This document shows, piece after piece, positions 16,949 to 21,045 of a stretch of DNA of 64,000 nucleotides. A program made the translations under genes and the position numbers. Numbering within the stretch: the first letter of the stretch is position 1; the number at the start of each line of letters is the position of its first letter. The notes below the pieces were generated by a model, which searched no databases, was not told the origin of the DNA, and worked only from the letters and a program-made list of their open reading frames with translations. The stretch is from Myxococcales bacterium. Its GTDB lineage: Bacteria > UBA10199 > 2-02-FULL-44-16 > JAAZCA01. The stretch is taken from the NCBI GenBank assembly GCA_012513515.1, contig JAAZCA010000005.1, positions 1 through 64,000 of the forward strand. The letters run 5' to 3'.

Positions 16949-17200
16949 CACCCGTGACTGGTGACTCGCAACTGGTTAACGGTCGGAACCCCGCGTTAGC
17001 GGCGGCTTACAGCATGCGGGAATGACATTCATTGTGTCATCCCCGAGTGACGAAAAGGTTGTCATCCCCGAGTGCTTTAATCGGGGATCCAGCAACGACC
17101 GTGACTGGTAACTCACTTCTAGATTCTAGCTTCTTGATGTTTTGGTCGATGGTCAATCGTCCATGGTCGAAGTTATTGTTACAGCTAACTTCTCAGAGGT
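16949..17200. repeat. dispersed repeat island 3 (inverted C, B, A modules plus module E)
   Basis: This gene-free stretch holds CGTGACTGGTGACTCG right after mtgA, an inverted module C (GCGTTAGCGGCGGCTTACAGCATGCGGGAATGAC in part), inverted module B (TCATCCCCGAGTGCTTTAATCGGGGAT in part), inverted module A at 17112-17143, and module E (GGTCGATGGTCA...TCCATGGTCGAAGTTATT) at about 17140-17190. Module E recurs inverted at about 51670-51730. Confidence 0.85.
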
Positions 17201-17252: not shown

Positions 17253-17328
17253 TGGCGTCCCCACGGGGATTCGAACCCCGGTCGCCGCCGTGAAAGGGCG
17301 GTATCCTAGGCCTCTAGATGATGGGGAC
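17253..17328 (-). tRNA. tRNA-Glu (anticodon TTC)
   Basis: 76 nt including an encoded CCA end. The acceptor stem GTCCCC pairs with GGGGAC, the anticodon arm is CCGCCCTTTCACGGCGG with TTC in the loop, and the T arm contains GGTTCGAATCC. It is followed by a terminator. Confidence 0.96.
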
Positions 17329-17342
17329 GTTTAATACAGCCG

Positions 17343-17369
17343 ATAGTGCTTAGTGAGTAGTGTTTAGTT
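17343..17369. repeat. left inverted repeat of an IVS-like element
   Basis: ATAGTGCTTAGTG, five extra bases, then AGTGTTTAGTT. It matches the complement of the right arm at 17741-17760 apart from the small insertion, so the whole segment could fold into a long stem around the four-helix-bundle pseudogene. Confidence 0.75.
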
Positions 17370-17727
17370 ACCGTTTATTCCCTATTGAATGCTTCAAACC
17401 TTTGAGCATTTTAATTACTCCTAAGTTCGCATATCGTAATTTTTCTAATTTATCAACCGCGGTGCCCAAATTCTGCAATGTAGCGATCCAGTGATCCAAT
17501 TCTATTGCAGATCTTATGGATATATTCCAATATCTGATGAATTCCTTTCCTTCGTAGCTGTCCTAGCCTTACGCAACATTCGCGCCTACGGATGATATCG
17601 CACTAAATAATTGTTTGACGATATGCTGGATTGGATAGCTATTCGGTAATTTTTCAAAGAGCGATAGAGATTCTTTTATGCACTCCTGATTCACCTGCCA
17701 AACCTTCAATTCTTTATACGTACCCAA
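17368..17727 (-). pseudogene. four-helix-bundle protein (23S rRNA intervening-sequence protein family), inactivated
   Basis: One continuous 120-codon frame can be read, from a TTG with GGAGG 7 nt upstream to TAA. It encodes a recognisable four-helix-bundle/IVP-type protein: GTYKELKVWQ start, FEKLPNSYPI, AISSVGANVA, then GKEFIRYWNISIRSAIELDHW. Two in-frame stops interrupt it, TAA directly after GANVA and TAG two codons later, where the family normally has an EG(Y/F)G-like stretch. The frame is intact on both sides, so the gene decayed by point mutation. It lies between two tRNA genes and inside inverted repeats, as in the intervening sequences inserted into 23S rRNA of some bacteria. Confidence 0.8.
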
Positions 17728-17740
17728 TCCGGGTCCTCCC

Positions 17741-17760
17741 AACTAAACACTAAGCACTAT
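17741..17760. repeat. right inverted repeat of an IVS-like element
   Basis: AACTAAACACTAAGCACTAT, the reverse complement of the left arm at 17343-17369 after removal of a 7-nt difference. Together the arms bound a 418-bp element. Confidence 0.75.
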
Positions 17761-17775
17761 CAACTGCCCTTACTG

Positions 17776-17848
17776 TGAGCCGCCCGAGGCTCGAACTCGG
17801 GACCACATCCTTAAAAGGGATGTGCTCTACCAACTGAGCTAGCGGCCC
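17776..17848 (-). tRNA. tRNA-Lys (anticodon TTT)
   Basis: 73 nt with no encoded CCA. The acceptor GGGCCGC pairs with GCGGCTC (one G-T pair), the D arm is CTCAGTTGGTAGAG, the anticodon stem CATCC/GGATG encloses CTTTTAA, and the T arm contains GAGTTCGAGCCTC. The tRNA-Glu next to it does encode CCA. Confidence 0.95.
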
Positions 17849-17905
17849 AAAAACCCTTATCAAATAGCGAGGCTGCAACAAAAAGAGCCTTCAAAAAGTC
17901 GGCGG

Positions 17906-17934
17906 AACCTAGCAGATGACAGTTGTCGTGTCAA
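17906..17934 (-). promoter_or_regulatory. sigma70-type promoter of tRNA-Lys
   Basis: On the minus strand: TTGACA (17929-17934), 17-nt spacer, TAGGTT (17906-17911), about 50 nt before the mature tRNA 5' end. Confidence 0.6.
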
Positions 17935-17998
17935 TTGCCCTAAGCCCCTTTAAACTCATTTTTTGCTCTTAAAGGAGGGCTTTCAACCTCTTTTTGAT

Positions 17999-18026
17999 TT
18001 GACAATCGTCAGCCGATACTTAAAAC
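17999..18026 (+). promoter_or_regulatory. promoter candidate of the histone gene
   Basis: TTGACA at 17999-18004, 16-nt spacer, TAAAAC at 18021-18026. The ATG is 37 nt downstream, with AGGAGG before it. Confidence 0.5.
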
Positions 18027-18062
18027 TTCGCCGAAATTTTTTAAACATAAAAAGGAGGGGGT

Positions 18063-18242
18063 ATGGCGAAGGAAACATTGGTAGTAGTTTCGAAGGTTAA
18101 GGATTTCGTGAAGGAACAGGGTCTGCAGACCTCGGAAACAGCGGTGGACGCTATTTCTGACGCGGTCCGCGAGCTTCTTACGAAGGCCATCGAAAGGGCG
18201 AAGGCCAACGGCCGTCAGACGATAAAGGACCGCGATATCTAG
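18063..18242 (+). CDS. small bacterial histone-fold protein
   Basis: 59 aa, starting MAKETLVVVSKVKDF and ending GRQTIKDRDI. The pattern is helix 1 (about 8-18), loop, a long amphipathic helix 2 (about 24-47, AVDAISDAVRELLTKAIERA), then the loop-2 signature R-x-T-I-x-x-x-D-I that matches the GRKTI(K)xxDI end of archaeal histones. Helix 3 is cut short, as in Bdellovibrio Bd0055-type histones. A strong AGGAGG site lies 5-9 nt upstream, with its own promoter candidate and a strong terminator, so it is a monocistronic and probably highly expressed chromatin protein. Identification is by motif recall; the DNA-coating role is inferred from the family. Confidence 0.85.
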   Translation: MAKETLVVVSKVKDFVKEQGLQTSETAVDAISDAVRELLTKAIERAKANGRQTIKDRDI

Positions 18243-18265
18243 TTTTTGAAATGGCGAACTGCCGG

Positions 18266-18297
18266 AAAGGCCTCGCATCATGCGAGGCCTTTTTTTT
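18266..18297 (+). terminator. rho-independent terminator of the histone gene
   Basis: AAGGCCTCGCA stem, 3-nt loop, TGCGAGGCCTT, then a T run. It lies 24 nt after the stop codon. Confidence 0.9.
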
Positions 18298-18339
18298 AGG
18301 GAGGCCTCCGATATTTGACCAAGGATAAAAATTCGAAAG

Positions 18340-18555
18340 TGAAGGGTATGACTTTAAGTAACCTCCGAAAAATCAGCAAATTCAGGGCGACTCTAAAAGC
18401 TGTGCGCTTGTCATCCCCACAACAACCGTGACTTGTGAGTGGTGAACGCTTGGAACGGGATTCCCGCTTACAGCATGCGGGAATGACGGCGTGATTGTCA
18501 TCCCCGAGTGGTGTAATCGGGGATCCCGTAACAACCGTGAGTGGGAAAAACAGAG
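18340..18555. repeat. dispersed repeat island 4 (inverted D, C and B modules)
   Basis: Inverted module D at 18352-18417 (AAGTAACCTCCGAAAAATCAG start) is followed by CGTGACTTGTGAGTGGTGAACG, inverted module C (GATTCCCGCTTACAGCATGCGGGAATGAC in part) and inverted module B (TCATCCCCGAGTGGTGTAATCGGGGAT in part), ending in GTGGGAAAAACAGAG. It stops exactly where the hidden extension of the 357-aa gene ends. Confidence 0.85.
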
Positions 18556-18785
18556 CTATCGGATGTTAGAGATGATCCGCCTCGCCGTATTCACTAAATC
18601 ATTCCTAGCCTCAGGACTCCAGCTCACTTGGGAACTCCTTCCTTGACGGGAACTGGTGGTTCTGGATCGTGACAATGTTTTATTGGATACTGCCCTTACT
18701 GGTTGTGAATCAGAAGGAACTACGGCAGTGGTTGTGGTGGATTCAGAAGCAGCAGTTTGACCAGTGACGTCGGCGACTTCAACCT
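18556..18785 (-). other. open -1 frame extension of the 357-aa gene beyond a G9 tract
   Basis: Right after the nine-G tract of the upstream gene (18787-18795 on the plus strand as C9), the -1 frame is open for about 75 codons to a TAG at 18556-18558. The translation is Ser/Thr-rich (VEVADVTGQTAASESTTTT...) and ends in an amphipathic ARNDLVNTARRIISNIR. With ten Gs it would be in frame with the gene. It may be the true C-terminus (frameshift or sequencing indel) or a slippage product. Confidence 0.5.
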
Positions 18786-19793
18786 TCCCCCCCCCTCCCC
18801 CGGTTTCAAAAGCCCAATCAACCCGTTCACATCCATCCCCTCAACCCCTTTTCGATATGCAGGTCTTAGCGTAAGTGTAGTTTTAGAATTATCTGAGGAT
18901 AGAATATTCCCCGTCGCCCCTTCGAGGGGAGAATATTGTCCTAGTTTGCCACCATCCTCCACGCACCAAGTCCCATTACTATCATAAAAAACTACATTTA
19001 GATTATTGGCTTCGACACTATCGGGCCATTCACTAACATTAAACGCCTGCGCTGTTACGACCCCTTTTGTTTTTTTATCCCCTTTCGGAATCCTAGTTAG
19101 CTCAACCTCCTCCCCCTTGCCATAGACTCTTTTCTCAACCACTTTCTTCGCCTCCTCCGCACTCTTGCCAAGAATTTTGGTGAGGTACCACTCGGCAAAA
19201 TCCCTGCGCCAGAGCTCCCCTCCAGAGCTCGGGAGGGATCTTAAAAGTTCTTTGGCCTTTTTTACATCGCCATCTGCCTTATTTTGTATGATTGTTAACA
19301 ATTGGCCTGCATTATTCTCACCGTATCCCTTATTATCGGCGATCGTATCCTTAAACTTTGCATCATCGATCGTTTCGGAGGGCTTGGCGCTCGCATCTAT
19401 GTTTAGACTGTTGGAGCCTCCCCTTTGCGCCGGCGGCGGGGGAGCGGAGTGAGCCGGCGCGGCACCGCTAAAGTTCGGCGCCTCAGGCCCCTGCATCTTC
19501 ATGAATTCGGCGACGGGATCATATGAAAGCCCCGGCCCCTGCTGCTGAGCTATCAGGCTACGGGCGTTCTCCGCAAAAAGTTTGGAAAGCTGGCCCGACC
19601 CCGCAGCTATCATGCTGGCCGCGGGAGAGTCGCCTGCGCCGAACATAGCGAAGTTGGATTCTCCAAATGAGCTGCCGATGCGCCCGGTGATAAAATCCTC
19701 CGCGCTTTTCGTTACGTTCGAAAGGGCGCCCAGAAATCCGGCAGGGTTATGAATCATCCCATCTTCAACTCTAAATCCGCCAGATAAAGCCAT
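18720..19793 (-). CDS. orphan low-complexity protein with a homopolymer-controlled C-terminus
   Basis: 357 aa as read. The N-terminal region is Gly/Ala/Ser-rich, then a Pro-rich PPPPAQRGG linker at about 120. Residues about 140-300 look folded: helical KDTIADNKGYGENNAGQLLTIIQNKADGDVKKAKELLRSL, then a beta-rich part ending in LTLRPAYRKG. No signal peptide and no recognised family. The last 13 residues follow a G9 tract and read like an out-of-frame tail; one more G would give a protein of about 420 aa ending at 18556. It is 19 nt downstream of the 410-aa orphan gene, so the two are probably one transcript. Confidence 0.6.
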   Translation of the reverse strand: MALSGGFRVEDGMIHNPAGFLGALSNVTKSAEDFITGRIGSSFGESNFAMFGAGDSPAASMIAAGSGQLSKLFAENARSLIAQQQGPGLSYDPVAEFMKMQGPEAPNFSGAAPAHSAPPPPAQRGGSNSLNIDASAKPSETIDDAKFKDTIADNKGYGENNAGQLLTIIQNKADGDVKKAKELLRSLPSSGGELWRRDFAEWYLTKILGKSAEEAKKVVEKRVYGKGEEVELTRIPKGDKKTKGVVTAQAFNVSEWPDSVEANNLNVVFYDSNGTWCVEDGGKLGQYSPLEGATGNILSSDNSKTTLTLRPAYRKGVEGMDVNGLIGLLKPGEGGGRLKSPTSLVKLLLLNPPQPLP

Positions 19794-19812
19794 AGTCCCC
19801 TCGCTTCCCTAA

Positions 19813-21045
19813 CTAGCCGCGAAGCATGTTGCCGCCATAAGGCGAGCCGAGCATGTCCGCGAGTTTGATTTCATCCTTGAGATCGCCGATCAGGCGATCC
19901 TTAAGCCCCTTCGCCTTGAAGAGGTCGGATATCTTTTCCGTGAGCTCCGAATTGAGCTTGGCTATCTCCGTCAACCGCGTCTTTTTCTCTATCAGCCGCC
20001 CGTAGAGCTGGGCCTTGGATTTCACCATCTCCACGCCGGGGTGGGAGGTGTCGAATTCGCTATAGACCACAAAGCTCGGGTCGCTTTCCGGAATCGCCCC
20101 TGCTTCCACCCCCTCTGCTGATGCCGCTATTCCCGCGGGAGCGGAGACCGCTTCATCCCTATTTTCCCCCTCTTCGCCGGTGCCGGAGCCAAAGCCTCCT
20201 AGCATGGCGTTTAGATCGCGCGCAGCATTCGATCCGCCGGCGTAGGCGATCGATCCACTCCCTTTCGATGATCCAGTTTTTCTTTCGGAGCCCTTTTCCC
20301 CACCCTTGCGGCCGGTTTTTTTGTCGGATTCGCCGGATTTGGAGGGTTTCGCGACATCCTGTGTCACCGAGGCCGCTAGAGCCCCTTCAGCGCGGGCCGG
20401 ATCGGCGCTCTTTGGAATATCCTTCGCATCCACAGCAGAAGTCAGCTTAGCCGCGGATTTATTCCCCTTATCCGATGCCCCTCTTCCCCCCTCCTTTTTT
20501 CTGCCTGTCTGGTGTTCGGGTCCCTTATCACGGATGGATGGGCGCGCCCCCCGATCGGCATTCATCCCCCCCTGATTCGGGGCCTTTTGGGGATCTCCTA
20601 CGAACTCGGTTCTAGCCGATGGCCCCTTGTCGAGAATGGGGTTTCTGGTCGCCGTAGCGGCCGGATCGAGAGCCTTTGCCTGCGCGGCCGGCATCTTTGT
20701 TTCGAGGCTTTTAAGGTTTGCGGCATCGGCCCTGTTTTTCAGGAACTCCTTCGATGCCTGCGAGCTTTCGGCAGCGGCGCGGCCATGGCTTTCCAGAGGA
20801 GCCCTTTCAGCCCTCTGATTATCCCCCCTCCCCACATCTATCTCGGGGCCTTTTAAAGGCGCAGCCGCCCCCTCCCTTCTTCTAGAGGGATCGGGAGGGG
20901 AAGAATTAGCCATATCCATGGCTTTAGAGGCCTGTGAGCCCTCCCTGACGGCGGAGCCTTCGCGCTTTTCAGCCAACTTCTCCGAGGTGCTCTTCTTCGA
21001 TTGCTGCCAGCCATCCCCAAATTTTTTGATTCCAACCTCGCTCAT
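19813..21045 (-). CDS. orphan disordered, Lys/Ser/Gly-rich protein with C-terminal coiled coil
   Basis: 410 aa. Residues 1-300 are low complexity (repeated KSG, KGSG, SQASK words) and probably disordered. Residues about 320-400 form a charged helical segment (KSKAQLYGRLIEKKTRLTEI, then LTEKISDLFKAKGLKDRLIGDLKDEIKLAD) likely to be a coiled coil. There is no signal peptide, membrane segment or recognised family. A GAGGAG site lies 9 nt before the ATG. A secreted substrate or structural role is conceivable but nothing here proves it; no secretion-system gene is adjacent. Confidence 0.65.
   Translation of the reverse strand: MSEVGIKKFGDGWQQSKKSTSEKLAEKREGSAVREGSQASKAMDMANSSPPDPSRRREGAAAPLKGPEIDVGRGDNQRAERAPLESHGRAAAESSQASKEFLKNRADAANLKSLETKMPAAQAKALDPAATATRNPILDKGPSARTEFVGDPQKAPNQGGMNADRGARPSIRDKGPEHQTGRKKEGGRGASDKGNKSAAKLTSAVDAKDIPKSADPARAEGALAASVTQDVAKPSKSGESDKKTGRKGGEKGSERKTGSSKGSGSIAYAGGSNAARDLNAMLGGFGSGTGEEGENRDEAVSAPAGIAASAEGVEAGAIPESDPSFVVYSEFDTSHPGVEMVKSKAQLYGRLIEKKTRLTEIAKLNSELTEKISDLFKAKGLKDRLIGDLKDEIKLADMLGSPYGGNMLRG

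Follow-up and report, generated by a model that had tools for sequence, protein, structure and literature searches.

Among the histones of prokaryotes, the face-to-face (FtF) histones rank second in group size (PMC11390915), and the studied bacterial member, HLp, is a DNA-wrapping tetramer that is made by the residues R49, N53 and R55, in an organism group, Leptospira, that is reported to be without HU (PMC12701072). Schwab et al. assigned the dimer–dimer contact to R48 and N52 of the FtF profile, which correspond to R41 and N45 in D4GZE0, and described bacterial dimers as being without these residues. For the histone Bd0055 (HBb), a straight coating of DNA was originally modeled, and bending has since taken its place (PMC11317129). 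Among the papers searched, none joins UBA10199, the lineage of the DNA analyzed here, and a histone. The analyzed DNA, in the following called the window, is a stretch of 64,000 nucleotides, and an earlier note on it had proposed that positions 18063–18242 encode a small bacterial histone of the Bd0055 type, for which DNA coating and not wrapping was assumed. We agree on the histone, and the sub-type and the DNA-binding mode were most likely misassigned.

A conserved stand-alone histone gene

The open reading frame at 18063..18242 (+ strand) begins with ATG, encodes 59 residues and has exactly the coordinates that had been claimed for it. Relatives were gathered from 38 of the 46 genomes of the phylum, and same-length homologues with 71–83% identity are present in all eight other genomes of the order. 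Because of these homologues in the order and relatives across the phylum, a chance open reading frame could be dismissed, and 18063–18242 is a genuine histone-fold gene. The gene evolves under purifying selection, with pairwise dN values of 0.11–0.23 against its homologues, dS values that are either above 1.2 or saturated, and differences that sum to 256, 163 and 962 at the first, second and third codon positions, respectively.

When the single sequence was searched against the PDB, HBb/Bd0055 (E = 5.7e-11) and HLp (4.5e-9) were matched, and when a family profile built from the window protein together with four relatives was used, HLp came first with 2.9e-21, against 8.6e-15 for HBb. In Pfam, PF09123 reached exactly its cut-off and matched residues 25–59 only, while PF00808 (just under) and PF00125 stayed below their own cut-offs. 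A monomer model, calculated with AlphaFold2 from a five-sequence alignment (mean pLDDT 85), contains helices at residues 2–18 and 25–48 and a three-residue helix 3 at 56–58, and thus has the short helix 3 (three to four residues) and the shortened helix 2 by which α3-truncated histones are defined. The nine best Foldseek matches of this model were all α3-truncated histones, with HLp (9QT0) at the top, and the monomer match barely separates HLp (4.4e-4) from HBb (9.1e-4). The profile searches and the fold model therefore bear out what the earlier note had recognized, which was a bacterial histone with a nearly absent helix 3 and the motif GRQTIKDRDI, the latter being indeed present. Two other histone forms were considered and rejected: the DUF1931 pseudodimeric histones (PF09123) are defined by two folds per chain, and the window protein is a single fold of 59 residues; the ZZ histones have an N-terminal ZZ zinc finger, and the window protein has no N-terminal domain. 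A phage origin was rejected as well, with no match in the phage collection and no convincing PHROG.

A consensus scan for a promoter and a terminator at the histone gene found neither, and a comparison among relatives replaced this uninformative scan. It revealed a −35 box TTGACA (17999..18004, +) that is conserved in the order, being located 59–75 bases upstream of the start in nine of nine genomes, with TTGACT in one of them. The corresponding −10 region TAAAACT (18021..18027, +; spacer 16–17) is weak, has a poor consensus, and is a tentative assignment. The ribosome-binding site AAAGGAGG (18051..18058, +) is positioned 4 nt before the ATG, and sites of the GGAGG type are equally placed in the relatives compared. 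Downstream of the stop codon, a 14-bp stem with a 3-nt loop and a T run is predicted to form a strong intrinsic terminator (18264..18297, +; −23.5 kcal/mol, z = −5.6), and different yet equivalent strong hairpins follow the histone gene in the relatives compared. The earlier proposals of an own promoter, an own terminator and a strong ribosome-binding site are thus upheld.

The gene is surrounded by genes for a thiolase, a DnaJ-family protein, a dCTP deaminase-like protein, a transglycosylase, tRNA-Lys and tRNA-Glu, and the same set is found in two relatives of the same family. In comparison with the same-family loci L064 and L065, the histone–tRNA-Lys–tRNA-Glu block within 17253–18300 is inverted relative to the transglycosylase gene, and repeats at 17005–17111 and 18466–18547 flank the inverted block. 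At 17337–17766, inverted repeats of 19–25 nt flank the stretch between both tRNA genes, and on the − strand, two long open reading frames (357 and 410 aa) without Pfam match occupy 18720–21045.

Probable assignment to the face-to-face class and its alternatives

The sub-type was addressed at the positions of the dimer–dimer contact. R45 (codon 18195..18197, +), N49 (codon 18207..18209, +) and R51 align without gaps with R49, N53 and R55 of HLp, and the former two correspond to R41 and N45 of D4GZE0. R45 occurs in 25 of 25 FtF-class and in 0 of 22 dimer-class sequences, and position 49 is occupied by D, E or A in dimers. The class labels were defined by positions 45 and 49, but three further features track the labels, namely the length of loop 1, K52 and the exact C-terminus. 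Loop 1 has a spacing of 41 residues in every bacterial FtF sequence, of 45 in the archaeal one and of 42–43 in the others, and loop 1 of the window protein is without the extra residue of the dimer class. K52 is present in all 22 dimers and in one of the 25 FtF sequences, and the window protein has Q52. Loop 2 and helix 3 (18213..18242, +) comprise R51-x-T53 and the R51–D58 clamp, of which R51, T53 and D58 are invariant across all classes, and the chain ends with I59, exactly one residue past D58, as it does in 24 of 25 FtF sequences and in none of the 22 dimers (Fisher p = 1.6e-12, uncorrected for relatedness). The FtF motif RxTxxxxD, without a conserved K after the R, is thereby found as R51-Q-T53-IKDR-D58, whereas bacterial dimers are characterized by RKTxxxD and by the absence of the R/N contacts, with which R45, N49 and Q52 disagree. 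Against the FtF class, the window protein keeps R57 and the KDRDI end, as in dimers, and it is without equivalents of S52, T61 and F63 of HLp.

We consider it probable that the gene encodes a minimal, tail-less FtF α3-truncated histone that wraps DNA as a tetramer ring, and the protein most likely adds, as judged from its sequence, one member to the known FtF α3 histones. By analogy with HLp, HTkC and D4GZE0, a tetrameric state and DNA wrapping are probable, and the abundant expression suggested by the earlier note, like the role in the cell, may follow these histones too. Two chains would pair via the histone handshake, and two such dimers would meet at both ends in an interface built from loop 2, helix 3 and the last part of helix 2. 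In this interface, R45 of one dimer would reach the free C-terminal carboxylate (residue 59) of the other, N49 would likewise form a bond with R51 across the interface, and a closed ring would result. Such a contact with the C-terminus would account for the fixed chain end. The DNA would run around the outside of this ring, gripped by S10, K11, K13, K17, T23, S24 and T53, with about 60 bp being wrapped per homotetramer, and the role would be a non-specific packaging of the chromosome beside HU/IHF.

The Bd0055/HBb-type assignment of the earlier note would imply separate dimers that bend or sheath DNA. HBb is indeed the best single-sequence PDB match, with about 48–50% identity in the structural alignment, and R57 and the RDI end are common to both proteins, but S45, D49 and K52 of HBb, its extra loop-1 residue and its chain beyond position 59 have no counterpart in the window protein. 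Phylogeny also disagrees, as the FtF sequences together with HLp are split from the dimer, ZZ and HBb sequences by a branch with 90/99 support and 100% of bootstraps, and the dimer-type homologues of the phylum form a clade apart from the window protein. When columns 45 and 49 were masked, 24 FtF rows including the window protein and HLp still grouped together (95/97); a single dimer row changed place, as did some of the rows with long branches. The alignment, with its 59 residues, resolves few branches. HMMs without these contact columns, of which the FtF model was also built without the order of the window, score the window protein with 91.0 bits as FtF versus 77.6 bits as dimer. The Bd0055-type assignment was rejected on these residues, the loop length, the C-terminus, the tree and the profiles, and we regard such a dimer histone as unlikely. 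Coating instead of wrapping is most likely wrong for the same protein because the studied bacterial FtF member HLp is a wrapping tetramer (PMC12701072), and even for Bd0055/HBb the coating model has given way to bending (PMC11317129).

The other alternative is that the histone fold mainly serves a local regulator or a binder of a protein partner, and not a general chromatin protein. It is in line with the low net charge of about +0.4, where the fragments of HBb and HLp carry +2.7, with the genome encoding four members of the HU/IHF family as well, and with the caution of Schwab et al. that prokaryotic histone folds need not all organize genomes. The low charge suggests a weak or regulated DNA binding, and together with Q52 and E25, which stand in place of DNA-contacting residues, it argues for a DNA binding that may be weaker than that of HLp. 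However, the positions that contact the DNA backbone are strongly conserved, with S10, K11, K13, K17, T23, S24 and T53 being invariant or nearly so, the gene is a stand-alone unit that has a promoter and a terminator of its own and has been retained in nine of nine genomes of the order, and in other organisms, FtF histones often show high expression. We therefore hold a mainly local function to be quite improbable, and the wrapping FtF tetramer is retained as the preferred reading.

Histone kinds and HU across the phylum

The relatives within the phylum are of three kinds. One kind has R45 and N49. Another resembles Bd0055, having different residues at these two positions and one additional residue in loop 1, and in the last kind, the histone is fused to an N-terminal cysteine-rich (ZZ-like) domain. 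In the nine genomes of the order, only the FtF kind is found, and in 11 other genomes it occurs alongside dimer and/or ZZ histones. One genome (G038) has all three kinds (L027, L042, L046), and ten more have two. Three genomes of the same class that are at least 92% complete (G009, G025, G031) gave no detected histone with the window query; their histone may have been lost or may be too diverged. The genome of the window (1.79 Mb, 99.3% complete) has a single detectable histone, and a search for a second one, including a Bd0055-type dimer, found none. As every one of the 46 genomes of the phylum has HU/IHF-family genes, it is improbable that the window histone packages the chromosome alone.

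It is conceivable, and we stop just short of calling it probable, that this uncultured, little-studied phylum combines HU with wrapping FtF histones, to which many of its genomes add bending dimers and ZZ histones, and that one bacterium would thus use several histone types with divided roles. In the FtF line, selection would then act on the position of the stop codon itself, as the tetramer would be locked by the free C-terminus. The chain end at D58+1 together with R45 would offer a simple sequence test to distinguish tetramer from dimer histones. Moreover, the single-histone order and its neighboring families with two or three kinds could allow wrapping and bending to be compared in related bacteria. 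The bacterial FtF members studied so far are from Leptospira, which is reported without HU (PMC12701072), whereas FtF histones and HU coexist across the lineage analyzed here.

Comparison with described histones

Among the described systems, HLp of Leptospira perolatii (PDB 9QT0-9QT2; PMC12701072) shares with the window protein the length class, the one-turn helix 3, the equivalents of R49, N53 and R55, the RD clamp, the loop-1 length, the helix-1 lysines, and the end one residue past the clamp aspartate. It differs by its N-terminal tail, by S52, T61 and F63, and by its higher charge, and its host is reported to lack HU, whereas the genome of the window has four HU/IHF-family genes. HBb/Bd0055 of Bdellovibrio bacteriovorus (PDB 8CMP, 8FVX, 9EZZ; PMC10627809, PMC11317129) has in common the α3-truncated fold, the RD clamp, the S-K-x-K start of helix 1, T23/S24 and R57, but it differs by S45, D49 and K52, by a loop 1 that is longer by one residue and by a chain continuing past position 59, and it is a dimer in solution. 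The archaeal FtF histone HTkC of Thermococcus kodakarensis (PDB 9F2C; PMC11390915) is, like the window protein, a minimal histone of 59 residues with the equivalent of R45 and with R51-x-T53, and it belongs to the tetramer class to which we assign the window protein with the probability expressed above; it differs by a glutamate instead of asparagine at position 49 and by a distant sequence.
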